A DNA stretch of 64,000 bases from Chitinophaga pinensis (GTDB lineage Bacteria; Bacteroidota; Bacteroidia; NS11-12g; UBA9320): positions 1 to 64,000 of the forward strand of contig CAMDSC010000007.1 in NCBI GenBank assembly GCA_945907065.1, read 5' to 3'. The stretch's first letter is position 1. The number at the start of each line of letters is the position of its first letter. The notes beneath the pieces were generated by a model. That model had not been told where the DNA came from, ran no database searches, and saw only the letters and a program-made list of their open reading frames with translations. Shown one piece after another: positions 19,704 to 64,000 of this stretch. The position numbers and the translations under genes were made by a program.

Positions 19704-22700
19704 TTATTCATCTTCACTATCATCAAATTTTTCAACAAACTTAGCTACAGTTCTTGTAGTCCCAGGCCTTATAGAATAATCTGATTTTTGCACTTCATTA
19801 AATTTGTCACGTATCAAATCATTAAATTCCTTATCAGTGCTAATAGCGACCAAATTATTTCTAAAATACTCGAAATAAAACCAGTCATATTTTGATACTT
19901 CTATATAAATTTTTAAACTAACTCCACTCCGTTTCACCTGCATTTGCATACGGCTATTAAATCGTTTATTAATTTGTTGACCATTGATTACTGATACTCC
20001 AATAGGTGAAGCTGAAAACCAGGATTTATTTTTTGGAGAATAGGTAAACTTAGTTTCAGAAAAAATAAATTTTCGTTTAATATCTTCGGATACTTCCATT
20101 TCACCTATTTCGGTGGCTTTTTTATAAGTTGACTCCAATCGCTTATCAGTCAAAAATTCACCCAATTGATATCTTAAATCATCCCCTGAATAAGGAATGC
20201 CCGATGCACCGCCACCTTGATCCTTCATTATTGCAATCATCCTTTTGTAGGCATCTTTGGGTAATAAAATATCAAGAGCCATAAAGGCTTCCAAAGTGTA
20301 ACTGCTGTCATCATCCCGCTTATACATTTTTCCAGCTACTAATGGATCCAACACAGGCATTGAAAGTCCCATATTAATTTTGCCTTGTGTGGAAATCATT
20401 CGGGTGGTTTCGTTAAAGGTCATAATACTTCCTCTTGGAGCATTATTCAAAACTCTGTTTTTATCACCAACCCTAAATTCGTTCGTTGCTTCATCATAAA
20501 TAAATACACCAGTATCAGTAGTAAATTCAGGGTCAGCATATTTGCGCTTAAAGTTAAAAAATGTTGGATAAATCATTGCAGTATCCATGGCCATATTCAT
20601 ACTTACCGATACAAATTTATTCTCATCATTTTTGGGTTCGCTGGCATTTATTACAATAGTTTTAGGGTCGGGGCGCTCCTTATATCTAATCCAATTACTT
20701 CCAATATTAAAGGTATGAAGTGGTTTTACATACCCGTTAAAGCTAAGGTAATCATTGTTTGAGTTAAGCTCAAATGGTCCTTTATAACCAATCATCGGAT
20801 ATATTTTAAAATGTATTGAATCCTTAATTGTACCCAAAGCTTGAACAGTGCTATCAGGCATTACTCGAAGTTTATCAAAAAATATTACTTGCCCGGTTTT
20901 GTTTTTGTCTTTAAACTTATAATTCCCAGTTCCGCTAATAGCTTTGCGTCCCATTATTTTCAATGTACAAGCATATAATTCATGAAATTTATTATCTCGT
21001 GCCGCCAAAAACTTAGAATCTAATAATGGTAATATATCCGCATCTTTTGCTATAGTAACGCTGCCATCCTTAGGAAAAGCTCTTGAATCAGCGATATCAA
21101 TGTACGGAACGTTTTCGGCATAAATCATTCCTTCTTTCATATCAAACAAAGCATGGTCTGAATCAAATTTAAGTCCGTCCTGATCATGCCTGCGGGAAAT
21201 AAAATAGGACTTGGCTAATTTTGGACCTTTGGTTAACAATATCGTTTGCTGATCCATATCCCAAAAATATTGATCCATGGATGAGGCAAATTGATTATAT
21301 CCAAAATCCGTTAACTGCCCTGGGATATTGGCTTTAAAATCTCCAGTTCGTTTATCAAAATCTACAAATGATTTTACATTACTACTCGAAAATGCAATTT
21401 TATCTTTATCAATGGAACCTATTTCAATTTTAGCGGTATCGGCTTTTACACTATTGGTGGCAAACACCATTAACCGACTGGTGAGTTTTGCCTTATCCCA
21501 CTCCAAAAATCCTTTACCAGTAAGATGTTTAGGGGTCATAACCATGTTTCCGGTATATTTTTGCCCAGCCCTAAATACATCAATAGTGTGGCCCAAAGTA
21601 TTTACATACAAACTGTCTTTTTTAGGAACCCAGTGATTTTTTATCTTTTCGGCACGCACATTTGGATATTTGACCGATTCATCAATTGTAAATAAATCTG
21701 TATTTGAATTCAAGGAATCAGGCAACATCACAATGTCTTTCGATTTTATTTTTGCCCCCAAATATTCCACCTCTCCTTTTGCTGTCAGCCCTTTATCATC
21801 TAATCGTATATCAATATCGCCATGGCCTTTGGTACCATACATAGGATATCCTTCGGGTGGTGAAGCTTTTTCAAAACCCAAAGAATAATCTTTCATAATT
21901 TTAGCTTCAAATCTAAACTCAGGTAAAATTCCAGCAGATACAAATGAACCTGGAAACTTTAATCCACTAATAGTAAAATTATCCATACTATCAATGGTGA
22001 AAGGGTCTACTTTAAAATAAAAATCCCTTTCATTATAAGCTCCTTTATAAATACTGTTTTTTTGATAGGATATTTTTGAAGGTTTTTCACTCACAAAAAT
22101 TGGGTACTCACCATTACTTGTATCCGTACCCGATTTATTGTTGGGCTTGTCAATATAGATGGTTCCGCTAATATCTTTTAAAAGTGAAGTTACCGGTAAT
22201 AGCGTATTTCCGTTTACTGAGTCTGGATAATATAACCGCATGGAATCAATTTTATCCGAATGGATTTTAAACTGACCATAGTCAAAGTTAAATTTTTCTG
22301 AATAAAAATCGAACCAACCTGCGGTTAATCTGCCACCAAAATCAATATTTCGTCTATTCTTAATATTTAAAGTTTGCTCATGTGGATAGGCCGTTACCGT
22401 TTGCGAGTCGCTAAAATTAAAGGCTGTAACTCCTTCAATCACAAAATTATTATTTATCAAATTAAGATATGAATTTGGCCGTCCACCAATGATGGACCTA
22501 AACCGAATCACGTCATAATCTTTCAGTTTAAAGTGTGCATTTACATAATCAAATATTTTACGTTTTACTTTTATTTTACCATTGTCTGGGTTATAATATA
22601 AAAACCCATTATCTGCCAAATCAATAATTTGATTCTTTAATTTATCAGGCGAACTACCCATCCATGCCGCATATTCATCCAATGTAAATTCACGTTTTTT

Positions 22701-24095
22701 GGTTTGAATGCAATAGGCCTGCATTTTATTAACAGGATGATAATTTAAAAGTCCTTGAAGTTTTTCATAATTAAAATCACGGTAATAATTAGCGGATTCA
22801 AAGCGTGCCGTTCCATCTTTGGTGTTCATGGAAAAATCAATTTTTGGCTGCCCAAGTTTCCATCTTACTTTATCTACATAAAATTCTATAGCATGGTCAT
22901 TATCAAAAAATGGAGACCGTTCTAGTCCTTCTTCACCACGATTTAATACCATTAAAGTATCCGCCATATTAAAATTGAGTTTTAGCATCGGGTGATAAAT
23001 AGTGCCGCTATCAGTAAATATTGTGACTGCTGTTTTTTGAGAGGTAATTTTATTATCACGAACCACAAACGATTGAGACTCTGCTTTCAGTTTTAATTTA
23101 TTTTTATAATAAAATCCAAACGAAGCCGGATTTTCAGGAGTACCTATACCAACAATATCACGACCTTGCATACTAAATCCACCAAGATATTTGGCCAAAC
23201 CACCTGAAAATTTTTCAATAGTCATATCTGTTTTATAGGCTGTGAACTGCGGATATTTCGAATCTTTAAAATCTTTTTGGGTTTCGCTTAACCTTTCAAA
23301 CATGGCACGGTCCTTTAGTTTACCCAACACTGGAGCAGGAATTATGGCCTTATTGGTAAATGTAACCGAATCCGCTTCAACTTCGGCCTTACTCATGTCT
23401 ATGGAGTAGTTTTTTAAAACCGCAAATACATCGGCCGGGGCATATCCTACCCTAACCCAATCTATCTTTCCTGTCATTCCTTTCCATACCGATTTTTCAA
23501 GATCATAAACTCCCGAAGTTCCTTTTATTTCTATTTTATCATCAATAGTTACACATTTCAAATCAATATTATTAAACTCAATTAGGTATTTTCCACCGCT
23601 AAAATTGTACTTAAATTCAGTGGGTGTATAAAACCATTTTTTTGATTCTGATACATACACCGCATTTTCTTCAAACATGCCTTTGGAGGTTTTTAATAAT
23701 TGTCTCACCTGATTGGTTCCAGCTTTTGCAGCTGTTAAAACTGCTTTTATCCAAAAGTCAAATTTTTGGTCGCTCAATCCTTTGGCCGTATCCTTTGCAC
23801 ATACCAAGGTACGGCAATACAATTCAAAATCTGGTGTAATCCTCATTTTATTCAAAAGCATTTCATCCCCTACTTTAATAATAAGCAGTTGGTGGTCTTC
23901 CAAAAATTTATTGGTTTTCCAATACTTTTCAAATTTGGTAAATGCCTCAATAGCTTGCGCTTCCTTGGTGCTACTCATAAAATCCTTTAACTCCACAATA
24001 AAAACTTCTGGCTTTTTTGAGAAGGATTTGGGCTGAGCAAAAGCACAAATACCAACACCTATAAATAAAAAAGAGAATAACAGTTTTTTTAACAT
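19704..24095 (-). CDS. Very large secreted/periplasmic protein of unknown function
   Basis: I do not recognise a family. The product has 1463 residues and a signal peptide (MLKKLLFSFLFIGVGICAFAQ). After a helical N-terminal part (about 25-150) the rest is dominated by alternating beta segments, many of the form 'xDSMxxF' and 'FKAxIPGQLTDFGYNQF'. This suggests a long beta-solenoid or AsmA/TamB/LptA-like architecture that could span the periplasm. A central helical insert (EFTLDEYAAWMGSSPDKLKN, about 475-495) looks like a small winged-helix. No membrane anchor, lipobox or T9SS domain is visible; the end is acidic (FVEKFDDSEDE). The start overlaps the prmA stop by seven bases, so translation is coupled to prmA. 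A role in envelope assembly is speculation. Confidence 0.75.
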   Translation of the reverse strand: MLKKLLFSFLFIGVGICAFAQPKSFSKKPEVFIVELKDFMSSTKEAQAIEAFTKFEKYWKTNKFLEDHQLLIIKVGDEMLLNKMRITPDFELYCRTLVCAKDTAKGLSDQKFDFWIKAVLTAAKAGTNQVRQLLKTSKGMFEENAVYVSESKKWFYTPTEFKYNFSGGKYLIEFNNIDLKCVTIDDKIEIKGTSGVYDLEKSVWKGMTGKIDWVRVGYAPADVFAVLKNYSIDMSKAEVEADSVTFTNKAIIPAPVLGKLKDRAMFERLSETQKDFKDSKYPQFTAYKTDMTIEKFSGGLAKYLGGFSMQGRDIVGIGTPENPASFGFYYKNKLKLKAESQSFVVRDNKITSQKTAVTIFTDSGTIYHPMLKLNFNMADTLMVLNRGEEGLERSPFFDNDHAIEFYVDKVRWKLGQPKIDFSMNTKDGTARFESANYYRDFNYEKLQGLLNYHPVNKMQAYCIQTKKREFTLDEYAAWMGSSPDKLKNQIIDLADNGFLYYNPDNGKIKVKRKIFDYVNAHFKLKDYDVIRFRSIIGGRPNSYLNLINNNFVIEGVTAFNFSDSQTVTAYPHEQTLNIKNRRNIDFGGRLTAGWFDFYSEKFNFDYGQFKIHSDKIDSMRLYYPDSVNGNTLLPVTSLLKDISGTIYIDKPNNKSGTDTSNGEYPIFVSEKPSKISYQKNSIYKGAYNERDFYFKVDPFTIDSMDNFTISGLKFPGSFVSAGILPEFRFEAKIMKDYSLGFEKASPPEGYPMYGTKGHGDIDIRLDDKGLTAKGEVEYLGAKIKSKDIVMLPDSLNSNTDLFTIDESVKYPNVRAEKIKNHWVPKKDSLYVNTLGHTIDVFRAGQKYTGNMVMTPKHLTGKGFLEWDKAKLTSRLMVFATNSVKADTAKIEIGSIDKDKIAFSSSNVKSFVDFDKRTGDFKANIPGQLTDFGYNQFASSMDQYFWDMDQQTILLTKGPKLAKSYFISRRHDQDGLKFDSDHALFDMKEGMIYAENVPYIDIADSRAFPKDGSVTIAKDADILPLLDSKFLAARDNKFHELYACTLKIMGRKAISGTGNYKFKDKNKTGQVIFFDKLRVMPDSTVQALGTIKDSIHFKIYPMIGYKGPFELNSNNDYLSFNGYVKPLHTFNIGSNWIRYKERPDPKTIVINASEPKNDENKFVSVSMNMAMDTAMIYPTFFNFKRKYADPEFTTDTGVFIYDEATNEFRVGDKNRVLNNAPRGSIMTFNETTRMISTQGKINMGLSMPVLDPLVAGKMYKRDDDSSYTLEAFMALDILLPKDAYKRMIAIMKDQGGGASGIPYSGDDLRYQLGEFLTDKRLESTYKKATEIGEMEVSEDIKRKFIFSETKFTYSPKNKSWFSASPIGVSVINGQQINKRFNSRMQMQVKRSGVSLKIYIEVSKYDWFYFEYFRNNLVAISTDKEFNDLIRDKFNEVQKSDYSIRPGTTRTVAKFVEKFDDSEDE

Positions 24096-24898
24096 AGTTC
24101 AATAATAATACATGCCCAATCGTTTCGTTCTCTCACTTTTGCAATTTTAAGGCCAAGGGTTTTAACTAACTTATCAAAATCTGAAACATCATGATTATAA
24201 AACCCGCTGAGCAATATCTTCCCACCCTTGTTTAGTGCAGAAGAATATTTTACAAGCATTTCTAAATTTATATTTCGGTTAATGTTGCTCAAAATAATAT
24301 CGTATTTGCCTTTAAAATTAGCATCATCTTTAAAAACTAAAATTGTGTAACAATTATTGTTTTCAATATTTTCTTTCGAGTTTTCAACCGCCCAATCATC
24401 ATTGTCGATGGCAGTTACTTTTGAGGCTCCAAGTTTTTCGGCTAAGATGGAAAGCACGGAGGTGCCGCAGCCCATATCCAAAACGGTTTTACCCCTCAGA
24501 TCCATTTCCATCAATGTTTCAGCCATCATATAAGTGGTTTCATGATGACCCGTGCCAAACGACATTTTTGGGGTAATAATAATTTCATAAGGCAATCCCA
24601 TCGACTCATGAAACGAAGCCCTGATTAAACATTTATCACCTATTTGTATTGGCTCAAAACTGCTTTCCCAACTGGCATTCCAGTTTATATTCTCTATAGA
24701 TTTGTAAGTATAACTTTCTATCAGATTATACTGTGCCAAGATTGATTTTAATGAATTCATATTCAAAGCTTCTTCGTGAATATAAAAACAAAGACTGTCG
24801 TTATTTTCCCAAACCCCTTCAAATCCGGCGTGCAAAAGCTCAGCTTCCACTAGTTCTTTGGTTTCATCGGGACAAAATATTGTAAATTCTAAGTACAT
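24089..24898 (-). CDS. prmA: Ribosomal protein L11 methyltransferase
   Basis: An SAM-dependent enzyme that trimethylates ribosomal protein L11. The 269 residues comprise an N-terminal substrate-binding domain (MYLEFTIFCPDETKELVEAELLHAGFEGVWEN) and a Rossmann domain with TPKMSFGTGHHETT (the PrmA hallmark GTGxHxTT), motif I VLDMGCGTSVLSI, VTAIDNDDWAVENSKENI, and the NPPY-equivalent SNINRNINLEML (typical PrmA NANI/NINR). It overlaps the start of the giant 1463-residue gene by seven bases. A 69-bp gap with inverted repeats separates it from tpiA upstream. The start at 24898 gives the normal family N-terminus. Confidence 0.93.
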   Translation of the reverse strand: MYLEFTIFCPDETKELVEAELLHAGFEGVWENNDSLCFYIHEEALNMNSLKSILAQYNLIESYTYKSIENINWNASWESSFEPIQIGDKCLIRASFHESMGLPYEIIITPKMSFGTGHHETTYMMAETLMEMDLRGKTVLDMGCGTSVLSILAEKLGASKVTAIDNDDWAVENSKENIENNNCYTILVFKDDANFKGKYDIILSNINRNINLEMLVKYSSALNKGGKILLSGFYNHDVSDFDKLVKTLGLKIAKVRERNDWACIIIELC

Positions 24899-45118: not shown

Positions 45119-48028
45119 ATGAAAACATTTTTTACTCTCTCAATCCTCGCTTTATCCCAACTGTGTTTTGGCCAAAAATTAATTGGTAAATGGGGCTTCG
45201 ACAATTCTTCCTATACCATTGATACCGGTCAGGGAAGCATTGCTGCCGAAGGTGGTGCAGCATTTACCTCTTTTGTAGCCGGAAACCCTTCTACAGGAAA
45301 ATCTTTTGGAACAAATACCTATCCTACCCAATCTCAAAGTAATGAAAAGGCAGGGATTAGAATTAAATTTTCTACCCAGGGATATAAAGATATTAGTTTC
45401 AGTTTTGAACAATACAACAGCAATACGGCTTCTAAAAAAACAATGATATTCGCATCGGCTGATGGAAATAGTTTTACAAAGGTGGACAGCCTAATAATTG
45501 CAGCAGGCTCCGCCTGGTTCACTAAAACTATCGACCTAAAATCATTTACTTCCTTAAACAATAAATCAGAAATTCATATCCTTTTGGTTTCTTCTTTTAT
45601 TGGAACACAGTATGTTGCCACCGGTTCTACCAGCACTTATGGCACCGCAGGGACATGGCGGTTTGATAATATCCGGTTTTGGGGAACTGAAGATAAAGCA
45701 CCATCTATTAAACCTAAATTAAACATCAGTTCTAACAAATCATCCTTATCAGAATCTAAATCAGACACGGCAACTATTACCTTTACATTAAGCGATACCG
45801 CTTTAGTAAATTTAAAAAATAAAATAACCTTTACCGGAACAGGAATTGGTTCAGGCGACTATATGTGGCTGGGAACCGATACCATAAATATTCCCAAGGG
45901 CAATTTGAGTGCTACTTTACAATTAAAAATTAAAGATGATACAGAAGTGGAATCATTGGAAACCGGGGATATTTCAATAATAAACCTCGATACAAATGTA
46001 ACAAAAGGTACCAGCCTCAAAATATCTTTAGTGGATGATGATATGCAAAGTACATTGATATGGGCGGTTCAGGGCAAAGGTGCTGCAAGTGTAATGGTAA
46101 ATTCAACGGTTGCGGTTGAAGGGGTTGTAATAGCCGATCTTCAGGGAACCAATGAACAAGGCGGTTATTATATTCAGGATAAAAACCCGGATACTGACCC
46201 TGAAACCTCAGAGGGCATTTTTATTAAAGATTTAACTTTTAATGTGGCAGAAGGGGATTTAGTAAAAGTTACAGGTAAAGTACTGGAAGAATTTGGGCAA
46301 ACTATTCTTACACAAGTCAGTTCAGTTAACATTCTTTCAAAAAATAATACTGTTCAGGTAGTCAACATTCAGTTTCCCCTTGATTCAGTGAATGTGTATG
46401 AAAGATATGAGGGTATGAAAATAAAAATAACCCAGCAACTGACGGTTACTGAAAACTACCAGTTAGGCCGATATGGTGAAATAACAGCTTCTGTTAATGG
46501 AAGGCTTTTCAATCCAAGCAATTCTATTGACCCGAATGATAATTCTAAGGAAGGAAATACATTTTCAGGTAGGTCTAATGTATCAGTTTTATTAGCGCAG
46601 CAATCGCTTAACAACCGCAGCAAAATCCTTATCTGTGATAAATTATCTATCCAAAACCCTAATCCTGTTCCGTTTATTGACCCAATAGAAAAGACGTTGC
46701 GAAGCGGCTCAACGATTGATACCCTAACAGGTGTGCTTGGTTATGGTTTTAGTTTTTATAGGGTTTATCCAGCCGGGGGTCAATTAAAAATAAACTATGC
46801 TACACGTCCCGCCGCCCCAACAATTAACGGAGCTAATGTAAAGGTGGTTGGAATGAATGTGTTGAATTATTTTAATGGTGATGGTATGGGTGGAGGTTTT
46901 CCAACGCCAAGAGGTGCAGCCACTTTACCAGAATTTGTGAGACAAAAAGCAAAGATAGTAGCAGCTATAAAAGCCCTGGATGCCGATGTGTTAGGCCTTA
47001 TGGAAATGGAACATGATGGAGATAGTACCTCATCGGCTATTAAGGATTTGGTAACGAGTATTAATTCAGCTTATGGCAACACGGTGTATGATTATATACG
47101 CGATTCGAAAGGTACCAACGGCAACCCAGGAACAGATGCCATAAAGGTTGCACTGATATATAAACCTTCGGTTTTAACTCCTTTTGGCCCATCAAAAAGC
47201 CATAACGATGCCTCATTTTCATTATTGGGCCGTCCGCCTTTGGCCCAAACCTTTACGTTAAAGAGTAACTCAGAAAAATTTACCGTAATCGTGAACCATT
47301 TCAAATCTAAAAGTTGTGCCGCATCACCAGCCGACCCGCTTGACCTTGACCAATTGGATGGACAAGGATGTTTTAACGCAACACGAAAAAAACAATCGGC
47401 AGCCTTATTGACTTTCATTTCCACTTTAGTACAACAAACCAATGATAGTGATATTGTTTCAATAGGCGATTACAATTCTTACGGTGAAGAAGACCCATTG
47501 GATATTTTGAAAGCTGCGAGTTTGAAAAGCCTTGCCGGTGAAACCTATTCCTATGTTTTTGATGCCCAGTGCGGCTCATTGGATCATGGATTTGCTACTC
47601 CAAGTATGTTTAAGCAAATGACAAGCGCTACCAAATGGCATGTAAACTGTGATGAACCTTTAATTATTGATTATACCCTTACTTTTAAAACCCAAGACTT
47701 ATATTCACCTATAGCTTATCGTTCATCAGACCACGATCCTCTTATAGCCGGTTTTAACTTAGCAAAAAAGGCTCCTGTTGGAATTGAAACAAGCAAAAAC
47801 TCCGGTTTTAAAATCTACCCAAATCCAAACAATGGTAATTTTACTATTGATATAAAAGATTTGGGAACATCTTCACTAAGCATTTATAATGTAACCGGTA
47901 AATTAATTTATTCAAATGATGCATTACAAGGAATAAGCGAAATCAAGGCTGAATTGAATTCAGGCTTATATTTTATCGTGATAGAAAGCCTTGGAAAAAA
48001 AATAACAGATAAACTGTTTATTCGTTAG
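45119..48028 (+). CDS. Extracellular endonuclease (ExeM/NucH-like) with T9SS sorting domain
   Basis: A secreted DNase of 969 residues. The signal peptide (MKTFFTLSILALSQLCFGQ) is followed by a jelly-roll module (about 20-195), a Calx-beta-like domain (about 200-305, DTATITFTLSDTALVN and DDTEVESLETGDISIINLD), an OB-fold module (about 310-430, GVVIADLQGTNEQGGYYIQD) and an endonuclease/exonuclease/phosphatase domain (about 575-890). The last has KVVGMNVLNYFNGDG, the metal-binding Glu in DVLGLMEMEHDG, VNHFKSKSCAASP, SIGDYNSYGEEDPLDIL and the C-terminal catalytic YRSSDHDPLIAGF. A T9SS type A sorting domain (KIYPNPNNGNFTIDI) ends it. It may scavenge phosphate or nucleotides, or degrade biofilm DNA. 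It lies in opposite orientation inside the atp gene group. Confidence 0.92.
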   Translation: MKTFFTLSILALSQLCFGQKLIGKWGFDNSSYTIDTGQGSIAAEGGAAFTSFVAGNPSTGKSFGTNTYPTQSQSNEKAGIRIKFSTQGYKDISFSFEQYNSNTASKKTMIFASADGNSFTKVDSLIIAAGSAWFTKTIDLKSFTSLNNKSEIHILLVSSFIGTQYVATGSTSTYGTAGTWRFDNIRFWGTEDKAPSIKPKLNISSNKSSLSESKSDTATITFTLSDTALVNLKNKITFTGTGIGSGDYMWLGTDTINIPKGNLSATLQLKIKDDTEVESLETGDISIINLDTNVTKGTSLKISLVDDDMQSTLIWAVQGKGAASVMVNSTVAVEGVVIADLQGTNEQGGYYIQDKNPDTDPETSEGIFIKDLTFNVAEGDLVKVTGKVLEEFGQTILTQVSSVNILSKNNTVQVVNIQFPLDSVNVYERYEGMKIKITQQLTVTENYQLGRYGEITASVNGRLFNPSNSIDPNDNSKEGNTFSGRSNVSVLLAQQSLNNRSKILICDKLSIQNPNPVPFIDPIEKTLRSGSTIDTLTGVLGYGFSFYRVYPAGGQLKINYATRPAAPTINGANVKVVGMNVLNYFNGDGMGGGFPTPRGAATLPEFVRQKAKIVAAIKALDADVLGLMEMEHDGDSTSSAIKDLVTSINSAYGNTVYDYIRDSKGTNGNPGTDAIKVALIYKPSVLTPFGPSKSHNDASFSLLGRPPLAQTFTLKSNSEKFTVIVNHFKSKSCAASPADPLDLDQLDGQGCFNATRKKQSAALLTFISTLVQQTNDSDIVSIGDYNSYGEEDPLDILKAASLKSLAGETYSYVFDAQCGSLDHGFATPSMFKQMTSATKWHVNCDEPLIIDYTLTFKTQDLYSPIAYRSSDHDPLIAGFNLAKKAPVGIETSKNSGFKIYPNPNNGNFTIDIKDLGTSSLSIYNVTGKLIYSNDALQGISEIKAELNSGLYFIVIESLGKKITDKLFIR

Positions 48029-53883: not shown

Positions 53884-55806
53884 TTAATTTAGTTTCTGTT
53901 TAAAATAGCTTACAAAATCTTCAAGTTTCATTGTACCAACATCTCCTTCTCCATGCACCCTTACCGAAACTTCATTATTTTCTTGTTCTTTTTCACCAAT
54001 GATAAGCATGATTGGGATTTTTTTCATTTCTGCATCCCTAATCTTTCTACCTACCTTTTCACTCCTAAAATCAACAAGGCCGCGAATATCGCTTTTTTCT
54101 AAATAAATTAAAAGGCTTTTTGCAAATTCCTCAAACTTTTCACTTATTGGCAATATAGCAACTTGGTCAGGAGTTAGCCATAGAGGAAAATTTCCGCTAC
54201 AATGTTCTATCAAAACACCGATAAAACGTTCTAATGAACCAAATGGGGCACGATGAATCATAACCGGACGAGCCTTTGTATTTTCAGAAGTTATATACTC
54301 CAATTCAAAACGTTCGGGCAAATTATAATCCACCTGAATAGTACCCAATTGCCATGAACGACCAAGGGCATCTTTTACCATAAAGTCTAACTTAGGGCCA
54401 TAAAAAGCAGCTTCGCCATATTCAGTTACGGTTTTTAATCCCTTTTCCGCGGCAGCTTCAATAATTGCATTTTCTGCCTTTTCCCAATTTTCATCGCTTC
54501 CAATATATTTTTCACGATTCACTTTATCGCGTAATGAAATTTGTGCAGTATACTCTTGAAAATCCAGTTTATCCAAAACATATTTTACCAAATCAATCAC
54601 AGATTTAAATTCATCTTTAATTTGGTCGGCTGTACAAAAAATATGTGCATCATCTTGTGTAAATCCTCTCACGCGAGTTAATCCGCTCAATTCGCCTGAC
54701 TGCTCATAACGGTAAACGGTTCCAAACTCAGCTATCCTTACTGGTAACTCTTTATATGACCTTGGTTTGTGGCCATAAATTTCGCAATGGTGCGGGCAAT
54801 TCATTGGTTTTAGGAAAAATTCTTCTCCTTCTTCTGGGGTATGAATCGGCTGGAACGAATCCTTTCCGTATTTTTCATAATGCCCTGATGTTACATATAA
54901 ATCCTTTTTACCAATATGCGGCGTCACTACTTGAACGTAGCCTCTTTCCAATTGTTCCTGGCGCATAAAACGTTCCAAGCGTTCACGAATCATTGTGCCT
55001 CGCGGCAACCAGATGGGTAACCCCGCTCCTACTTTATCCGAAAACATAAACAATTCCAATTCCTTGCCCAACTTGCGATGGTCTCGCTTTTTAGCTTCTT
55101 CAAGCACATAAAGAAACTTTGTAAGTTCCTTTGCTTTAGGAAACGTAACCCCATATAAACGGGTTAACTGTTTATTCTTTTCATCGCCACGCCAATAAGC
55201 CCCGGCTATATTTAATAATTTAACGGCTTTTATTTTTCCGGTAGATGGAATATGCGGGCCACGGCACAAATCGGTAAAATTACCCTGATGGTAAAACGTA
55301 ATTTGTCCGTCTTGCAATCCATCAATTAGCTCCAATTTATAGGGGTCGCCTTTTTTTGTAAAATAATCAATGGCATCTTTTTTAGATACATCTTGGCGGG
55401 TAAAAGAATTATCAGCATTGGCTAATTCCTGCATTTTGGCTTCAATAGCGGGCAACTGGTCGGCGGTAAAATGCATACCCCCAAAATCCACATCGTAATA
55501 AAATCCATTTTCAATTGGAGGGCCAATCCCCAATTGAACTCCCGGATATATAGCTTCCAAAGCCTCAGCCATAATATGTGCCGAGCTGTGCCAAAACGTA
55601 GATTTCCCTTCTTTATCGTCCCACGTTAGTAATTTTAGTGAACAGTCGGTATTAATAGGGCGAAAACTATCCCAAACCTCATCATTTAATTTGGCCGCCA
55701 AAACATTGCGGGCCAATCCTTCGCTAATTCCTTTGGCTATGTCCATGGCAGTAGTACCTTTTGGGTACTGCCTCACCGAGCCATCAGGAAGTGTTACATT
55801 AATCAT
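53884..55806 (-). CDS. thrS: Threonyl-tRNA synthetase
   Basis: It charges tRNA-Thr and edits Ser mischarging. The 640 residues contain the TGS domain (about 1-62), the editing domain with [11 protein letters not shown] and the second metal motif in [14 protein letters not shown], the class II core with [27 protein letters not shown], the zinc ligand Cys in [14 protein letters not shown] and further His ligands, motif 2 [30 protein letters not shown], motif 3 [22 protein letters not shown] and the anticodon-binding domain. It is the first gene of thrS-infC-rpmI-rplT; its stop is three bases from the infC start. A TAAATTTG -7 element lies 18 nt before its ATG. Confidence 0.98.
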
Positions 55807-55895: not shown

Positions 55896-56855
55896 TTATT
55901 TCCTCCCCTTTCTCGAAACCGAAATAACAGGCCCAAATTGCCCGCCGGTTTCTTCCTTATAAATATCATGAAGATACATTTTAGAAATTGCTCCATCTAG
56001 AAATAATGCGTTTTTACAATTAAAAATATCTTTCATAAAAATGGCGAAATCATAAAAATTACTACCATCTAGCGTGCAAGCAAAAACCACTTTTTTAGAA
56101 TTAACAATCCCTACTCCACTCCTAATTTTATAGTTAGTGGAACCTTTCACAAAGGCCGGATGAATTCTTCCGTTTATAACCAACATAGGCCCTGATTGGG
56201 TGGCCAGTTTTACTTTCGTTTTCTTTAATTTTTGCAATCGGGCAAATTCTCTGGTGGTATCAATATGCGGCATGTTTTTATTATCAATATAAAACACACC
56301 GTTGGGATAAAGATAAAAATTGAAACTCGACTTTTGATCCCCAACATCTAAACTGTATTTTTTTAAAGGATTTTCCTCCATATACAATCCTTCAGGCTCA
56401 AAAGTTGCTGTAAACATTCCAGCATTTGTAATCATTAATGGTTTTATTTTTTGTGCTTCTAAATGCGACTTCACATTACCTAAACTAGATTTATACTTAG
56501 GCCTAAGCAAATGCAATCTGATTTGGTCGCTATCCATATTGGCTAAAAAAAGATTGTATTTTACCCCATTAAAAACAATAGTCTTGCTTCCTGTTATTAT
56601 ATCAGAATATGATTTTAACTTAGCAAGAATGGATTTAAGAGCCATTTCATTCTCTGATTTTTCTACTGAATTAGTTTTATTTAATTTTACGATTTGGCAA
56701 TACTCATTAATTAAGATTTGGAATGAATCAACTTTTGGGATAATTATTACTTCTGGTGTTGGAGCTGAATTTTTACTATTTTTAACTACAACAAAAGAAA
56801 TGAGTACAGCACTAAACAGTAGAAGAATAAAACCTATAACCTTTTGTTTACGCAT
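55896..56855 (-). CDS. Phosphodiester glycosidase family protein (NAGPA/DUF2233 domain)
   Basis: A membrane-anchored periplasmic or surface enzyme of 319 residues, of the family that contains the uncovering enzyme NAGPA. An N-terminal anchor (VIGFILLLFSAVLISFVVV) is followed by a spacer and the DUF2233 domain (about 95-319): YNLFLANMDSDQIRLHL, ITNAGMFTATFEPEGLYMEE (the NGGFF-equivalent), RSGVGIVNSKKVVFACTLDG (the Arg-x-x-x-Gly strand) and KNALFLDGAISKMYL (the LDGG-equivalent). The key Asn, Arg and Asp positions are present, so phosphodiester cleavage is plausible. It is the last gene of a five-gene operon with a second, degenerate member two genes upstream. A palindrome follows its stop. Confidence 0.85.
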   Translation of the reverse strand: MRKQKVIGFILLLFSAVLISFVVVKNSKNSAPTPEVIIIPKVDSFQILINEYCQIVKLNKTNSVEKSENEMALKSILAKLKSYSDIITGSKTIVFNGVKYNLFLANMDSDQIRLHLLRPKYKSSLGNVKSHLEAQKIKPLMITNAGMFTATFEPEGLYMEENPLKKYSLDVGDQKSSFNFYLYPNGVFYIDNKNMPHIDTTREFARLQKLKKTKVKLATQSGPMLVINGRIHPAFVKGSTNYKIRSGVGIVNSKKVVFACTLDGSNFYDFAIFMKDIFNCKNALFLDGAISKMYLHDIYKEETGGQFGPVISVSRKGRK

Positions 56856-56861
56856 AGCTTT

Positions 56862-58988
56862 CTAATTTTTACACTTTAAAGAAATAGCTGATGCCACTCC
56901 AACTTTAGCATGCATCACAATGGTTTCCACTGGATTTTCCCGCTTCAATTTAGTCATTTTATCCAAATAATACCCTTCATAAAATTCGACTCTAAGCGTA
57001 TTGGGACTTATTGTGCCTTCGTTCCAAGCCTTAAAAATAAAATAATTATTAATACCCGGTTCTAAAATGAGTGCCCGGTTAAGTGTTCCATTTTTCTTAA
57101 TCCTTATAAGTTCCTTTTGTATAATTTCTTTACCATTAAAATATACCGAAATGGTATCCATATCCTGCTGACTATCATCGTAAAGCATCATAGTTAAAAC
57201 GCATTTATTAAACTCCAAAGGGCGTTTACGGTATTTTATTGAATCTTTCAGAACGTTAGTTGCCAATATAGTTTCCGTAAAAGTTTCTTCTGTTTTGGTG
57301 GTATCTATCACTGTAACTGTGAACGAACATTGCGCTGAATTCCCATACAAATCTTTAGCAATAAAAATATTTTCAGTTATTCCAATCGGGAAGATTTCGC
57401 CACTCTTTAATCCTTTTCGTTGGTTGATGGAATCTACTTTACAATTATCGGTAGCTTTAGGTTTGGGGTAGTAAAAACGAGTTCCTTTTTGGGTTTTATT
57501 AAAATAAATGGTTGAGTCCGACTGGCATTTTATCTCAGGCTTTTCATTATCAAATACGGTCACCATAAACGAACATTCATAAGAATCACCATTCTTATAA
57601 CGGTTTTTAGTATCTCCTAATTTATAAAAACTTTCGCTAGGATTACCTTCCATTAATTTTAATGCTTTTTGATTAATAGAATCTGGAATACTATACTTTA
57701 CAATAGCTCCACATTTATGCAAGTCGTTTGCTTTTCTAATATTATCAGGACAAGCTGCCAAACCTGAACCTGATTTTTTTATAACTTTTACTGCATAATT
57801 CAGTTCGGCCTGATTGCCGGAATTATCTGTGGCAATAAATGTCAAAATAGATTTTCCTTCCGGAAACTTAGACCCACTTGGCATACCATTTTTTAGCTTC
57901 ACTGTGGATGAACAATTATCCATTGCAATTGGCATGGAATAATTAAAAATCGTTCCATTACTGGCATCTTCAATAAATAATAGGGTATCATTTATCTGAT
58001 TAAAAAAAGGTGGTTCAATATCTTTCACGACAACTTTAGAATAGCATGATTTTTTAATCCCAAAATTACTTTCAGCTTCAAAAATTAAGGTTGTAGGACC
58101 AATAGGAAACTCTGAACCGGTTGACGGACCTGCAATTTGCTTAATCGTTGCACTTCCACATTTCACATCCAATAGAGGTTGGTCAAAATCAAGTACAGCA
58201 AAGCATTTATTTTCATCCGTATTCACATTGATATTATCGGGGCAGAGTAAATTAAAATCGTGGTCGAATGAGGCGTAGGCATTATCATTAAATATTTTAA
58301 TAACCTCTTTTTCATCCAATGCTGAACTAAAAATCCGCAAATCATCTAGGCAACCATTAAAAAACTCAATTGCACCCGGAATATCCTTGGCTATATGAAG
58401 CGGCTCATCATTTTGAATCAAAGGATTACTATAAGAAAACCTCCAAATTTCGCGACCATTCAAATACGTTTTAACATTTTCACCATCATATACCAAAGCA
58501 TAAAAATTCCATACATCGTTTTGAAAAAGGTGGGAATTAAAAGAATTATCGTACTCTGTAAATTCTGTATTTAAAGAAACGGTACTTTGGGTGGGTGACT
58601 GAAAAACTTGCACCCTGTATTGCGGATTATCAGGCGTTTCTACACTATTCCCTCCTTTGCAAATCATTGTTAGCCAATTGTAAGTAGTGGTTTGCATTTT
58701 AAACCAACAGGTGGCCGAAAATGTATTAACTGGAGATTTCAAAGTCCTTGAATTTGGAACTTCAATATACCCGTCCAGCCCGTTAAATAATAAAGCTCCA
58801 CAAGGATTTCCAAATCTATCGGCTGCCGCCTGAACACCACCAATCATAATTCCGTTATTATTATTTCCGCTTATATCCATAGCATTATTATCAAAAGGAT
58901 AATGTGCTATAATATCTTGCCCTTGAGAACTTATTTGTAATAGTAATAGAAAAAAAATCAGATTTAATTTTCTGGATAAATACATCAT
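56862..58988 (-). CDS. Secreted LamG and HYR repeat protein
   Basis: A large adhesin-like protein. I start it at the ATG at 58988 (708 residues), whose second codon is also ATG; both precede the signal peptide (YLSRKLNLIFFLLLLQISSQGQ). Then come a LamG/concanavalin-like domain (about 25-220: IIAHYPFDNNAMDISGNNNNGIMIGG, YIEVPNSRTL, GCLDDLRIFSSALDEKEVIKIF) and four HYR-type modules (about 235-580: CPDNINVNTDENKCFAVLDFDQP, FNQINDTLLFIEDAS, CPDNIRKANDLHKCGAIV, CQSDSTIYFNKTQKG), each with the GSxFPxGxT pattern. The C-terminal 110 residues are beta-rich without a T9SS motif, so export beyond the periplasm is unclear. It sits six to eight bases from each neighbour in the operon. Confidence 0.88.
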   Translation of the reverse strand: MMYLSRKLNLIFFLLLLQISSQGQDIIAHYPFDNNAMDISGNNNNGIMIGGVQAAADRFGNPCGALLFNGLDGYIEVPNSRTLKSPVNTFSATCWFKMQTTTYNWLTMICKGGNSVETPDNPQYRVQVFQSPTQSTVSLNTEFTEYDNSFNSHLFQNDVWNFYALVYDGENVKTYLNGREIWRFSYSNPLIQNDEPLHIAKDIPGAIEFFNGCLDDLRIFSSALDEKEVIKIFNDNAYASFDHDFNLLCPDNINVNTDENKCFAVLDFDQPLLDVKCGSATIKQIAGPSTGSEFPIGPTTLIFEAESNFGIKKSCYSKVVVKDIEPPFFNQINDTLLFIEDASNGTIFNYSMPIAMDNCSSTVKLKNGMPSGSKFPEGKSILTFIATDNSGNQAELNYAVKVIKKSGSGLAACPDNIRKANDLHKCGAIVKYSIPDSINQKALKLMEGNPSESFYKLGDTKNRYKNGDSYECSFMVTVFDNEKPEIKCQSDSTIYFNKTQKGTRFYYPKPKATDNCKVDSINQRKGLKSGEIFPIGITENIFIAKDLYGNSAQCSFTVTVIDTTKTEETFTETILATNVLKDSIKYRKRPLEFNKCVLTMMLYDDSQQDMDTISVYFNGKEIIQKELIRIKKNGTLNRALILEPGINNYFIFKAWNEGTISPNTLRVEFYEGYYLDKMTKLKRENPVETIVMHAKVGVASAISLKCKN

Positions 58989-58995
58989 TATTTTT

Positions 58996-59913
58996 TTATT
59001 GAAAATAAAATGCAAGAAGATTAACTGCACTATTAATGGATTGGGTGCCTGATACCGCTTTATTCACCGTGCAATTGCTATTGCGCAGCTCTATCACATT
59101 TTGGCATCCGGTATCCAAATTTATCATGTAGTTCACATTTATTTCTTTGAATTTATTTAAAAATTCTAACGCTTTTTTTGAAGATTCGTAGAGTGAAGAA
59201 CTTGCCGGACTATTTAAAATTATATTGAACGATTGCCCGTCGCTATCCTTTCCTGAAGCCAAAAACCTTCGTTCACGTTTGGCTGTATTAGAATTGGTAG
59301 CCGAAATTTTTAATACATTTTTATAAACTAAAAGATGAGTTTGAAAAACAGTAGCTTCCTGCGATTCGGCCCATTCCATAAAATCATCTAAATCATCTGC
59401 CGAGCGTCTTAAATTAAATTTTCGATTTTCATCAATTCCATTTCCCTTGAGGGTTAAATCGCCATCTACTAAATTGGCAACTACAATTCCTCCACCGCTG
59501 CCACCGGAGGCATATACAATGGCCAATGCATCCATTTTATTTTTAATTAAGGTTTCGTTTACCGGTACTCCGTTGTCAATAGTTAATCCTACTGGTTTTG
59601 CGGTTTCTTCATTATAACATTCATCCATGTAGGTTCCGCTTGATACCAATACCATACTTTGAATTCGCATACTCCAATCGGCATATCGCTTATACACACT
59701 TTTACCATTATCAGGGGCAGCAAAATATTTAGTCTTGATTCGTTGCCCAGCCTTGTTCATCATTATCACTACATATTCTTCGTTTTTGTAGGTTGAAGTT
59801 GAAAGTTCGACAAAGTTGGGATCATAACATTGTACACTATAATTACTAATGCTTAATAATTTCAAAGTGCCACTGCCAATAATAAATAAAGCTATAAAAA
59901 TCCCTTTCTTCAT
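58996..59913 (-). CDS. NAGPA-like secreted protein, probably catalytically degenerate
   Basis: A 305-residue protein with a signal peptide (MKKGIFIALFIIGSGTLKLLS). The order of motifs recalls the phosphodiester glycosidase (DUF2233) fold: VLVSSGTYMDECYNEETAKPVGLTIDNG resembles NGGFF-(n)-PxGLxxxxG, RRFLASGKDSDGQSFNIIL resembles the Arg-x-x-x-Gly strand, and NVNYMINLDTGCQNVIELRN resembles LDGGGSxxM. Three expected polar or Gly positions are changed (Asn to Ser, Gly to Thr, Arg shifted), which suggests a binding rather than catalytic role. The family link is inference from pattern. It lies between the two-TM protein and the LamG-HYR gene. Confidence 0.65.
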   Translation of the reverse strand: MKKGIFIALFIIGSGTLKLLSISNYSVQCYDPNFVELSTSTYKNEEYVVIMMNKAGQRIKTKYFAAPDNGKSVYKRYADWSMRIQSMVLVSSGTYMDECYNEETAKPVGLTIDNGVPVNETLIKNKMDALAIVYASGGSGGGIVVANLVDGDLTLKGNGIDENRKFNLRRSADDLDDFMEWAESQEATVFQTHLLVYKNVLKISATNSNTAKRERRFLASGKDSDGQSFNIILNSPASSSLYESSKKALEFLNKFKEINVNYMINLDTGCQNVIELRNSNCTVNKAVSGTQSINSAVNLLAFYFQ

Positions 59914-59916
59914 TCT

Positions 59917-60690
59917 TTAATCTCTCTTGATTTTGAATTTGTAAACACAATAATAGCTATAAAATGTAAAGAGAATTATAGTAGATAGCATTAACTTAAA
60001 TAAAAGACCTGTTCCGTCCCAAAATCGCTTGAATAAATAAGCCCACTTACTGTTTACAACATTATCAATAATTTTGGTAGTGCTTGAATTTCGGATATCG
60101 GGTGGATAATTTTGAGATTGGCAAGCACTAACTAGATACTTAAATTTATAATCGTATTTCAGATTTGGACTGCTATCATGGTATTGTCCCAATTTATTTG
60201 AAACATAGTTATACCAATGCCGGTGAACCATCCTGTAAAATTTTAAATTAGTGGTATCAATATCTTTGTAATACTGAAATTTATTAACCCACTGCAATAA
60301 CATTATCATCGTATCGGGATTATAAGTCTTGAATTTTGAACTCAGTTTTTCCTCCAAAGTATTGGTTAATGCCTTTACTAAAATCTTTTGATTTTCTTTA
60401 ACATTGGGATTTATTGAGTTTAATATTTGCAAATCTTTGTGAATGGACTTTATATCACAATAATCGGCTGAATCAATATACATTTTATAAGGAAACGCCT
60501 CTTTAAGATTTGATTTATTTAAACCAACTAAATGATTGCATAGATTAAAATATGCATTTTGAGGACACTGTTTTTCCTTAGGAATATCCGACGAATTATT
60601 AACGTTAACAATTGCAAAAAGTATAAAACCTGTAACGGTTAAAAATAAAACTACTGAGTAAATCCAAAACCTATTCGTATCGATTTTCAT
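59917..60690 (-). CDS. Two-TM membrane protein of unknown function in the surface operon
   Basis: A 257-residue protein not recognised. An N-terminal membrane helix (FWIYSVVLFLTVTGFILFAIV, about 8-28) and a C-terminal one (LLFKLMLSTIILFTFYSYYCVY, about 229-250) enclose a periplasmic-looking domain of about 200 residues. It is helical, rich in Asn, Lys and Tyr, and has several Cys (KQCPQN, NLCNHL, DYCDIK, SACQSQ) that could pair. The protein starts nine bases after the stop of the outer-membrane protein gene and ends three bases before the next gene. The topology (short cytoplasmic ends, large outer domain) would fit an inner-membrane partner of the outer-membrane barrel. Confidence 0.7.
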   Translation of the reverse strand: MKIDTNRFWIYSVVLFLTVTGFILFAIVNVNNSSDIPKEKQCPQNAYFNLCNHLVGLNKSNLKEAFPYKMYIDSADYCDIKSIHKDLQILNSINPNVKENQKILVKALTNTLEEKLSSKFKTYNPDTMIMLLQWVNKFQYYKDIDTTNLKFYRMVHRHWYNYVSNKLGQYHDSSPNLKYDYKFKYLVSACQSQNYPPDIRNSSTTKIIDNVVNSKWAYLFKRFWDGTGLLFKLMLSTIILFTFYSYYCVYKFKIKRD

Positions 60691-60699
60691 ATATTTTTT

Positions 60700-62955
60700 T
60701 TAACGAAACTTATCAATACTAAAAGCCAATGAAGCTAAATATTGTATGTTATTAAAATTGATTAAATGAATTTCGCTTTGCTTTTTATTGGATGTAATAT
60801 CCAATCGCATCCTAACTTTGCTTTGCACCCAATAGTTAAATCCAACCCCAATTTTCCAACCTGATAAATCTTTATAATCACTAAAGGAATATTGCATAAA
60901 ACCATCTGGCAGTGTTCTTTTTAAATTATAAACTGCATCAAAAGTGCGAGGCCGTTTTCCCTTATGCATACTCGTATAGCCTCCAAATCGCAACCCTACA
61001 CTTACCATTTCCTGATTAAATTCTTGATTAAAGAAATACTCTTTTATATAATTATCAGAAGTGGTGGTTTTATGATAATCATTGGATTGATTGAAGCGAT
61101 TGGTTGCTCCTAAAATCTTTATTTTTTTTAATCCAAACGCAAGTTCACTGCCTACATTTATTTTTTTATACACGTATTCAACCTTTGTGGTTGCAAACAA
61201 TTCGGTTGATTTATTGCCCAATAATATTAGTGTTGTAGTGCCTTGAGAATAGGATCCAAACAATCCAAAACTTATATATTTGTTTAAAATGGGATGAAAT
61301 ACCAAATCAACTTTTATACCCGAAGCGTTAACATATTTAATAACCGAATCGGCTGCTAAAAGATTTTTAGCAGTATCACTTTTAGTATATTTCATCAACT
61401 CCGAGTATTCAAAATTCTCGAATCCTAAACCGCCACCTATATGGTATGAATTTTTTAAACTGGCCGTGTATTGCTTACTAAAATAACGATGCTTTGTTGG
61501 CAATATCACAACACCTTTGCAATCTGTGGTATTACAAATTCCTTTGGCTTTTACAAAATAAGTGGTTTTTTTTCGGGGGTGAATAGTTATTGAATCTCCT
61601 TGGCTTAAAAATTTTCCTTTATTGCACGATCCTTTGTACCAGTTCCAATAAGCGTCTTTTCCCAATGTTCCTCCCGACAAACTTAATACTGTATTTTTGC
61701 CTTTATAAATTGAGCCACTATCAGGATTTGTAATAATTTTATCAGGTGCCACCGATTTTGAATTAACCGTAATTGTGGTAGAAACACACTTTGTGGTTTT
61801 ACACTGACCTTCGCCCCTTACAAAAAAAGTAGTTGTTGAATCCGCTTTTAGCCTTAGTACTGGGCCAGTGGTTAATGCCGTTTCACCGCAATAATCTTTG
61901 GACCAACTCCAATGAGCATCGGATGCTAATCCCTTATCTTCAATACTCAATTGAACCGAGTCTCCTTCACACACTGAATTTGCATTTGAATAAATAGAAG
62001 CTATTGGGTCTAATGATTTATCGATGGGGTCAACCACTAATTTAGCGCATTTGGTTGAATTTGTTTTCCCTTCGGCCTTTACATAGTAAGTGGTTTTTTG
62101 ACGAGGATTGATGGATATAAAATTTCCAGTTCCGATAAATGTACCGTTGCAACTGTCTTCAAACCATTTCCAAGTGGCATCAAGTCCTAAATAGCCGCCA
62201 TTTACTTTAAGTGTATTTGGAACGCCTTTGCACGGAGGAAATTTTAAAATAATACTCGAAGGTTCCCTACTATTTTGATTTACACTTACTGTAAGCTGAG
62301 CACAATTGGTAAAATTATCTCGCCCTTCGGCTCTTACAAAAAAAGTGGTAGTGGCTTCCGGTTGTATTTTAAGACTCACTCCTGTTCCTAATCTACTTGC
62401 CCCGCAAGTATCTTTATACCAAATCCACTCAGCACCTTCCCCTAAAAATCCACCGTTAACCGATAAAATTAAGGATTCACCAAAGTTCATTTTATTTTTT
62501 CCAACAATTCCTTTGGGACCTATTGATTTAAACTCACCTTTTGTACCCGAACCACTTTTGGGATAATAAGAAATTTCTTCATCATAATGCATGCTATCTA
62601 GCGACTGTGCTGTGAAAATATCATCTATGGATTCGATAGGAATTTCGCTTGACATTCCACCTTCCAATTTCCAAATGGGTATTGAATTTTGCTGATAAAA
62701 TTGACTTCCATTGCAATCGGTATAATCCATTTTCCAATTCACAAAACAATTATAGGTTCTGTATTCTCCCCGTATTCGGGTTCTGAATTTATACTTTTTT
62801 CCATCCAGTTCACAACTGTTATCCGAAAGCCTAAACTGAACCTCAACACTAATGGAACTATCAGAATAAAGCACTTCCCATGGCCCCCAACCTATTTGCG
62901 AAAAGCTATCAAAATTTTTAACCAATAAAAAAAACAGTATGACACAGTATCTCAT
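60700..62955 (-). CDS. Outer-membrane protein: four Ig-like repeats plus beta-barrel
   Basis: A 751-residue protein and the first gene of the surface operon. The signal peptide (about 1-19) is followed by an N-terminal beta domain (about 20-165) and four repeats of about 80 residues (about 165-485). Each repeat has the pattern GGxLGxDAxWxWYKxSC ... GTGxSIxIxPxxxTTYFVxAEG ... CA, a module common in Bacteroidota surface proteins. The last 260 residues (SYHIGGGLGFENFEYSELM to the end LASLAFSIDKFR) are alternating beta strands closing with Phe-Arg and fit an outer-membrane barrel. It may present the repeats outside and link to the downstream proteins. No T9SS domain is present. Confidence 0.8.
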   Translation of the reverse strand: MRYCVILFFLLVKNFDSFSQIGWGPWEVLYSDSSISVEVQFRLSDNSCELDGKKYKFRTRIRGEYRTYNCFVNWKMDYTDCNGSQFYQQNSIPIWKLEGGMSSEIPIESIDDIFTAQSLDSMHYDEEISYYPKSGSGTKGEFKSIGPKGIVGKNKMNFGESLILSVNGGFLGEGAEWIWYKDTCGASRLGTGVSLKIQPEATTTFFVRAEGRDNFTNCAQLTVSVNQNSREPSSIILKFPPCKGVPNTLKVNGGYLGLDATWKWFEDSCNGTFIGTGNFISINPRQKTTYYVKAEGKTNSTKCAKLVVDPIDKSLDPIASIYSNANSVCEGDSVQLSIEDKGLASDAHWSWSKDYCGETALTTGPVLRLKADSTTTFFVRGEGQCKTTKCVSTTITVNSKSVAPDKIITNPDSGSIYKGKNTVLSLSGGTLGKDAYWNWYKGSCNKGKFLSQGDSITIHPRKKTTYFVKAKGICNTTDCKGVVILPTKHRYFSKQYTASLKNSYHIGGGLGFENFEYSELMKYTKSDTAKNLLAADSVIKYVNASGIKVDLVFHPILNKYISFGLFGSYSQGTTTLILLGNKSTELFATTKVEYVYKKINVGSELAFGLKKIKILGATNRFNQSNDYHKTTTSDNYIKEYFFNQEFNQEMVSVGLRFGGYTSMHKGKRPRTFDAVYNLKRTLPDGFMQYSFSDYKDLSGWKIGVGFNYWVQSKVRMRLDITSNKKQSEIHLINFNNIQYLASLAFSIDKFR

Positions 62956-63148
62956 TCCAACGAATTCAAAAAGTATAATAATAATGACGCATAAATCTTC
63001 AATATATGTAACTAATATTTTAATATTAATAAAATATCAGTGATAACTCAGGCATTAGTGTTTATTTTAACCCTTCATTAATTTCCTTAGCAATAAGATT
63101 ATTGCCTGAGCAAGCCATCAGAAAGTGTTATAATAATTTTATAGAATG

Positions 63149-63156
63149 CAAATTTA
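63149..63156 (-). promoter_or_regulatory. Candidate -7 element for the surface operon
   Basis: The minus strand reads TAAATTTG. It lies between hflX and the operon and would give a leader of about 190 nt. No TTG at 19 bp. Weak, but it is the only TAnnTTTG in that gap. Confidence 0.35.
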
Positions 63157-63193
63157 GGGATTTGGGAGGTGGAATTTTGAAGAAATATCCACC

Positions 63194-63215
63194 ACTGTTG
63201 ACTTATGTCAACGGT
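63194..63215. repeat. Palindrome of the TTAA-centred family at the hflX stop
   Basis: ACTGTTGAC / GTCAACGGT with a four-base loop; the hflX stop codon lies in the loop. The right flank GGTAATAAATC resembles the 52998-53025 copy. Confidence 0.6.
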
Positions 63216-64000
63216 AATAAATCAATTATCTTTTCCTTCAACTCCTCCATATTGGTTTTATTAAGGGCAGATATAAAAACTACCGGAGAATTTTCTTTCG
63301 ACATCCAACTTTTTTTCAATAGGTCTAAATCATAGATGGTGGTATCTTCAAAAATATCTTCAGCCGTTGGGTCAGGGTTGTATTGGTCTGTTTTATTAAA
63401 TACAATAACAGTAGGTTTTTGGGCTGCGCCAATTTCTGCTAATGTATTATTTACTACTTCCATTTGGTCTTCAAACCCTTGATGTGAAACATCTACCACA
63501 TGCAATAAAACATCTGCATCTACTACTTCATCCAAGGTTGATTTAAAACTTTCGACCAACTGATGTGGCAATTTACGAATAAAACCTACCGTATCAGAAA
63601 GGATAAAAGCAATCGGCTGCTGCATTGGGTCAGGATTAGGAAAAACCACTTTACGAGCCGTGGAATCCAGCGTTGCAAATAATTTATTCTCTGTTAAAAC
63701 CCCCGCTTTTGTCAATGCATTCATTATGGTTGATTTCCCCACATTTGTATATCCCACCAAAGCTACTTTTTTCATGGCATCGCGGTTTTTGCGGCGAACC
63801 TGATTTTGGCTGTCAATATCTTTTAGCTTTTCTTTTAATAGTGAAATGGTATGGCGAATGGCTCGTCGGTCGGTTTCAATTTCTTTTTCACCCGCACCAC
63901 GTTGACCTATTCCTCCTTTTTGTCTATCCAAGTGACCCCACATTCGGGTAAGTCGCGGCAACAGGTATTCGTTTCTGGCCAGTTCCACTTGGGCTTTAGC
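63203..64000 (-). CDS. hflX: GTPase HflX (3' part, continues beyond window)
   Basis: A ribosome-associated GTPase that rescues or splits stalled ribosomes. The frame is open to the window edge and gives 265 residues, starting within AKAQVELARNEYLLPRLTRMWGHL. The HflX-specific GGIGQRGAGEKEIETDRRAIR and the coiled hairpin (about 40-75) are followed by the G domain: G1 VGYTNVGKST, G2 Thr in LFATLDST, G3 DTVGFIRKLP, G4 NKTD and G5 near VVFISALNK. About 130-150 N-terminal residues lie outside the window. The stop codon is inside a palindrome (63194-63215). Confidence 0.95.
   Translation of the reverse strand, partial: AKAQVELARNEYLLPRLTRMWGHLDRQKGGIGQRGAGEKEIETDRRAIRHTISLLKEKLKDIDSQNQVRRKNRDAMKKVALVGYTNVGKSTIMNALTKAGVLTENKLFATLDSTARKVVFPNPDPMQQPIAFILSDTVGFIRKLPHQLVESFKSTLDEVVDADVLLHVVDVSHQGFEDQMEVVNNTLAEIGAAQKPTVIVFNKTDQYNPDPTAEDIFEDTTIYDLDLLKKSWMSKENSPVVFISALNKTNMEELKEKIIDLLPLT

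Follow-up and report, generated by a model that had tools for sequence, protein, structure and literature searches.

Does a compact run of five genes in the 64,000-nucleotide stretch of Chitinophaga pinensis DNA analysed here (hereafter the window) form a functional unit, and on what would its products act? The set lies on the minus strand (62955-55896), between hflX (63203..64000, minus strand) as the upstream border of its insertion site and thrS (53884..55806, minus strand) as the downstream border. The first gene, g1 (60700..62955), encodes 751 aa with a signal peptide, a new domain of ~115 residues, four Ig_7 repeats and a possible barrel tail, and g2 (59917..60690) encodes a 257-aa protein predicted to reside in the inner membrane, with two transmembrane helices around an all-helical periplasmic domain of ~195 aa. 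These are followed by g3 (58996..59913, 305 aa), a putative exported and divergent protein of the NAGPA fold, g4 (56862..58988, 708 aa), an exported protein with a LamG (ConA-like lectin) domain, four HYR repeats and a C-terminal domain of ~110 aa, and g5 (55896..56855, 319 aa), a predicted YigE-type NAGPA phosphodiester glycosidase with a membrane anchor or signal peptide. A preliminary description had reported five genes on one strand spaced 3-9 bp apart, and all five open reading frames were recovered at their expected positions, the g1-g2, g2-g3, g3-g4 and g4-g5 gaps being 9, 3, 7 and 6 nt. The start of g4, mechanically called as part of an open reading frame spanning 59030-56862, was moved to ~58988 by alignment with its orthologue in G004, a genome of the same genus. 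By hydropathy or inspection, a signal or transmembrane segment is found at the N-terminus of all five products.

Conservation and distribution of the five-gene set

Recurrence of the genes together in other genomes had been named beforehand as a test that could refute the proposed grouping, and the set withstood it. The five genes were found in identical order in nine genomes, representing four genera, four families and four orders of Bacteroidia. In G004 the orthologous set lies beside hflX, with protein identities of 63-78%. Outside the order of the window, a g2 profile matched strongly in four genomes. In all four the next gene is g3, and on reading these loci all five genes proved to be arranged as in the window. 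A search of family f12 (the family of G365) recovered g3 in the 5/5 members of genus g164 that it covered and in 0/59 other genomes, and the five genes occur in order in every one of the five g164 genomes.

Spacings, measured in eight loci (G164 was excluded due to broken frames), range from -4 to +14 nt within g2-g5 and from -4 to +67 nt between g1 and g2. The conserved order, combined with the tight spacing of g2-g5, supports co-transcription. Between the genome of the window (G000) and G004, dN/dS is ~0.09-0.14 for each of the five genes, the ratios being rough owing to high dS. Correlations between identity matrices are 0.89-0.95 among g2, g3 and g4 and lower for g5 (0.49-0.71), possibly due to the variable N-terminal stalk of g5. 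Broken frames occur in g1, g2 and g4 of G164 and in g4 of G427, decay and assembly error being indistinguishable in these cases. Co-occurrence, order, spacing and purifying selection thus agree, and the operon-like unit is real: a set of tightly packed, co-directional genes, all for exported proteins and kept under purifying selection.

The operon is nevertheless patchy and rare. The g3 gene is present in 2/7 genomes of the genus of the window and in 2/108 of its order, in 5/64 genomes of family f12 and in 1/3 of the order of G164, while in a phylum sample of 395 genomes only the window's own genome carries it; a contig-level database scan matched the G004 record only. The genomic site varies by genus, being hflX-thrS here and adjoining uvrA or a thioredoxin/rocD cluster in g164. 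Compared to G365, the operon proteins are 33-51% identical and the neighbouring prmA 40%; as the operon range brackets prmA, there is no sign that these lineages exchanged the operon recently; transfer or repeated loss at an earlier time is indicated. The prmA gene also belongs to a separate conserved pair: in the window it is followed by a 1463-aa protein lacking a Pfam match (19704-24898), and in G365 the same pair is located just upstream of the operon (40% and 34% identity).

The NAGPA-fold proteins

Bacterial NAGPA proteins are widespread, with few substrates characterised. The animal uncovering enzyme is known to take off a protective capping sugar. The match of g5 to Pfam NAGPA is strong (E 2.8e-18; 67.1 bits vs a cut-off of 25), the protein is 38% identical to Acinetobacter YigE, and in a joint alignment it retains the motifs common to 12 stand-alone relatives (N[AG]GM, QSGPML, R.GVG and LDG). 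This supports its earlier assignment to the phosphodiester glycosidase family, and it is the only canonical NAGPA gene in the genome of the window. In G154, an extra NAGPA gene follows directly after g5 (L058, 13924-14670; 1.7e-10, 41.8 bits) with LDG changed to LES, which suggests that this sixth gene arose by duplication and divergence within the operon.

The affiliation of g3 is more remote. Pfam gave no match for the protein encoded in the window, but sub-cut-off NAGPA matches were obtained for 7/9 orthologues, the best scoring 22.4 bits (E 1.5e-4; cut-off 25) vs an E of 0.011 for the next unrelated family. When the profile of the nine g3 proteins was compared to that of g5 and the twelve stand-alone relatives, 162 columns were aligned with the motifs in register, and the score exceeded those of 150/150 column shuffles in both local and global mode, which was not the case for g1, g2 or g4. 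AlphaFold2, given no sequences other than those of g3, yielded a poor model (pLDDT 42); the nine top PDB matches of this model are all NAGPA proteins and the bacterial DUF2233 structure 3ohg ranks 14th, with E values of 0.1-1.3 that are individually not significant. A sequence-only PDB search with g3 and g5 gave no match, searches of PHROGs and NCBIfam with g3 gave nothing useful, and early hhalign comparisons using two to seven sequences were uninformative. As the three imperfect lines (sub-cut-off Pfam matches, profile shuffles and fold matches) concur, membership of g3 in the NAGPA superfamily is favoured, as a divergent relative of the fold, and the label 'NAGPA-like' given to it from the window alone was well chosen.

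This divergence concerns the hallmark residues of the family. Three positions are retained by g3 in the joint alignment, namely Gln in QSGP, Arg in R.GVG and Asp in LDG (the Gln and Arg register being set by eye, within a few columns), but N(A/G)GM(F) is replaced by SSGTYM(D) and LDGAIS by LDTG.Q. The altered residues raise the possibility that g3 may be non-catalytic. At the same time it ranks with the best-conserved members of the set (47-51% identity across orders) and carries motifs of its own that are invariant over the nine orthologues: SSGTYMD, PVG..IDNG, EATVFQ.HLLVY, RRFLA and MINLDTG.Q.

The g1, g2 and g4 proteins

The four Ig-like repeats described for g1 were identified by Pfam as Ig_7 x4 (8.9e-28). 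The constant part of g1 is its N-terminal domain, rather than the Ig repeats or the barrel: this new domain, covering the first ~115 residues past the signal peptide, is present in 9/9 loci with the motif W..WE.IYSD....VE.Q...S..SC ... DC, and in G154 it forms the C-terminal end of a TPR protein that also matches DUF5683 weakly. The barrel-like tail (residues ~490-751), initially regarded as a defining part, is found in G000, G004 and G164 only and is missing in 6/9 orthologues. It has no Pfam support, and its count of amphipathic strands is not above that of shuffles (p 0.36 and 0.21). An outer-membrane barrel is plausible, as a candidate feature of these three orthologues.

The nine g2 orthologues are 33-67% identical and share the topology transmembrane helix, helical domain, transmembrane helix (AlphaFold2 pLDDT 76, all helical). 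The two-transmembrane description of g2 is therefore retained, but not Cys as a constant feature of its outer domain, as the G427 and G840 proteins contain zero Cys. Nothing in Pfam was above cut-off for g2, and a fold search with its model gave no significant PDB match. The LamG-HYR architecture attributed to g4 was borne out by Pfam (Laminin_G_3, 5.9e-22; HYR x4, 1.5e-32), and the protein ends in a conserved C-terminal domain of ~110 aa. A Por_Secre_tail (type IX sorting domain) was not detected by Pfam in any of the five products, and surface display of g4 is consequently not assured.

Relation to known systems

Each part of the unit recalls an established type of system. The NAGPA/DUF2233 family (PF09992) includes YigE, BACOVA_00430 of Bacteroides ovatus (PDB 3ohg) and the animal uncovering enzyme (PDB 6pky/6pki/6u11); g5 and the extra gene in G154 resemble it at 67 and 41.8 bits, respectively, and g3 would share the same fold, on weaker evidence than g5. 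What differs here is that two members (three in G154) are fixed in one operon that also encodes a lectin, a new membrane protein and a protein with Ig repeats. In addition, g5 has an added N-terminal anchor and stalk and g3 its own motif set. NAGPA domains fused to Ig, cadherin, TelC-like or cell-wall-binding domains occur in surface proteins (PMC12419801, PMC11488536). The combination of NAGPA with Ig-like and adhesion domains is shared with these multi-domain proteins, but each of them is one fused protein, whereas the five-gene unit distributes its domains over separate proteins, two of which would represent new families. SusC/SusD polysaccharide utilisation loci likewise comprise exported carbohydrate-binding and glycan-cutting proteins of Bacteroidota; the five-gene unit, however, lacks a SusC/SusD pair according to Pfam, and its only glycosidase type is the NAGPA fold. 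The domain types of g1 and g4 are those of the type IX secreted adhesins of Bacteroidota (HYR/Ig_7/LamG), yet the five products are devoid of the sorting tail, although one occurs elsewhere in the window, in a 969-aa type IX sorted protein with an endonuclease/exonuclease/phosphatase domain (45119-48028).

Pfam, NCBIfam and PADLOC contain no model describing g2, g3 or the g1 N-terminal domain, and the non-subscription literature searched gave no description of the five-gene set. The statement that no known system has this set therefore stands within these databases and this literature, and the set is apparently undescribed. Its parts are mostly of known kinds; the conserved arrangement is new. 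The g2 protein and the g1 N-terminal domain appear to be new families and g3 a new branch of the NAGPA fold.

Putative role of the exported module

We tentatively favour, with somewhat less than even confidence, the view that the exported module binds a phosphodiester-linked glycan of the envelope and edits it, its products perhaps forming one complex. This reading builds on the chemistry of NAGPA enzymes, which is the release of phosphodiester-linked sugars (PMC12419801), together with the lectin and Ig parts. The new domain and Ig repeats of g1 and the anchor and helical periplasmic domain of g2 would form a scaffold tying the module to the envelope, while the LamG/HYR domains of g4 would bind the glycan. 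Hydrolysis of a sugar-1-phosphodiester by g5 would then expose a phosphomonoester or free a capping sugar, and g3, sharing this fold in re-tooled form, may act on a second linkage or serve as a substrate-recognising partner. The most likely substrate would be a polymer or cap attached through phosphodiester links to the surface of the cell itself or of a neighbour; the teichoic-like, capsule and mucus targets first put forward from the sequence are guesses. Conservation of the five genes, the NAGPA assignment of g5, the kinship of g3, the export signals and the third NAGPA gene in G154 support such a role. Counting against it are the small number of substrates characterised for bacterial NAGPA domains, the motif changes in g3, the missing sorting tail of g4 and the variability of g1, with its barrel missing in most orthologues and its N-terminal domain on a TPR protein in G154. 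A more detailed version is doubtful: two NAGPA enzymes, one canonical and one re-tooled, would be placed by the lectin and the Ig-repeat scaffold on a dedicated membrane anchor and would process successive linkages of a phosphoglycan not yet known from these bacteria.

Two other functions were considered, both of them unlikely. The unit could be an adhesion or recognition module, with both NAGPA-fold proteins acting as non-catalytic glycan binders beside the LamG/HYR protein. The substitutions of g3 at family hallmark motifs would fit, as would g4 and g1, which are typical adhesion-domain proteins, but the retention in g5 of all motifs of its stand-alone relatives is not expected of a dead enzyme, and the strict invariance of g3's own motifs resembles that of a kept active site. 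Alternatively, the module could mature a glycan of its own envelope by removing a cap sugar, in the manner of the animal uncovering enzyme, and not attack outside material. Such a function, which we consider just as improbable, is consistent with the membrane anchoring of g5 and g2, with the absence of uptake (SusC/D) genes from the operon and with the known release of phosphodiester-linked sugars by NAGPA enzymes (PMC12419801). However, the presence of the operon in only two of the seven genomes of its own genus speaks against a core step, and glycan-synthesis genes are absent from the unit.

The hflX-thrS insertion site

The genomic position of the set raises a further possibility. The hflX-thrS interval is empty in G001 and G002 (~80 nt), in G005 it holds other cargo, including a beta-propeller protein with a Por_Secre_tail, and in G003 different cargo again, in which the thrS promoter and initial codons are clearly present a second time (L041, 4390-4540; score 173 vs shuffles <=32). 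A pair resembling, by eye, a YefM-like antitoxin and a RelE-like toxin lies between this relic and thrS in G003 (L041, 4683-5161). A thrS relic is present in the window as well, between hflX and g1 (63100-63200, within 63075-63200; minus strand) and immediately behind hflX, and consists of the hflX-thrS spacer, the thrS promoter TAAATTTG and the first thrS codons; its local alignment score to the real thrS start is 62, compared to <=31 in 200 shuffles. Taken together, the relics in the window and in G003 suggest that cargo enters at the thrS 5' end, leaving the old 5' end behind. With cargo differing between G000/G004, G003 and G005, hflX-thrS is a recurrent, variable insertion site in the genus; no integrase was seen in its inserts. 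The relic element TAAATTTG, of the Bacteroidota promoter type and situated ~200 nt upstream of g1, may drive the operon. In G004, where no relic is detectable, an element TAAGTTTG is found ~100 nt upstream of g1.

Such a site, empty in two relatives and occupied by other cargo (with the YefM/RelE-like pair beside the thrS relic) in two more, and the patchy distribution of the set would be in line with a cargo for inter-bacterial conflict or phage avoidance, e.g. by receptor masking or editing. We regard this as very unlikely: no product has a PADLOC match at E<=1, which also sets aside a known anti-phage defence system, immunity genes and toxin domains are absent, and the set is retained in all five genomes of genus g164. 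In addition, searches recovered neither g3 nor g2 from IMG/VR, and no g3 from the plasmid records of PLSDB, and a phage or plasmid origin was rejected on these grounds. The sole 'phage' match of g5 lies in CAKLQH020000039.1 (L076; 'Acinetobacter phage MD-2021a' in INPHARED), a record that contains the chromosomal genes tktA, putA, trmA and yigE and appears to be Acinetobacter chromosomal DNA deposited under a phage name. That chance neighbours or unrelated genes were dropped in one hotspot has a negligible probability, for although unrelated cargo does gather at this site in relatives, chance adjacency is refuted by the conserved order of five genes at different sites in four orders.

Implications

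The set newly defines two candidate families, g2 and the g1 N-terminal domain, and a candidate branch of the NAGPA fold, g3. As it always combines one canonical and one divergent NAGPA member with a lectin, it offers a natural and testable context for the function of this fold, and points to a phosphodiester-linked glycan on the surface of uncultured Bacteroidota that has so far gone unrecognised.
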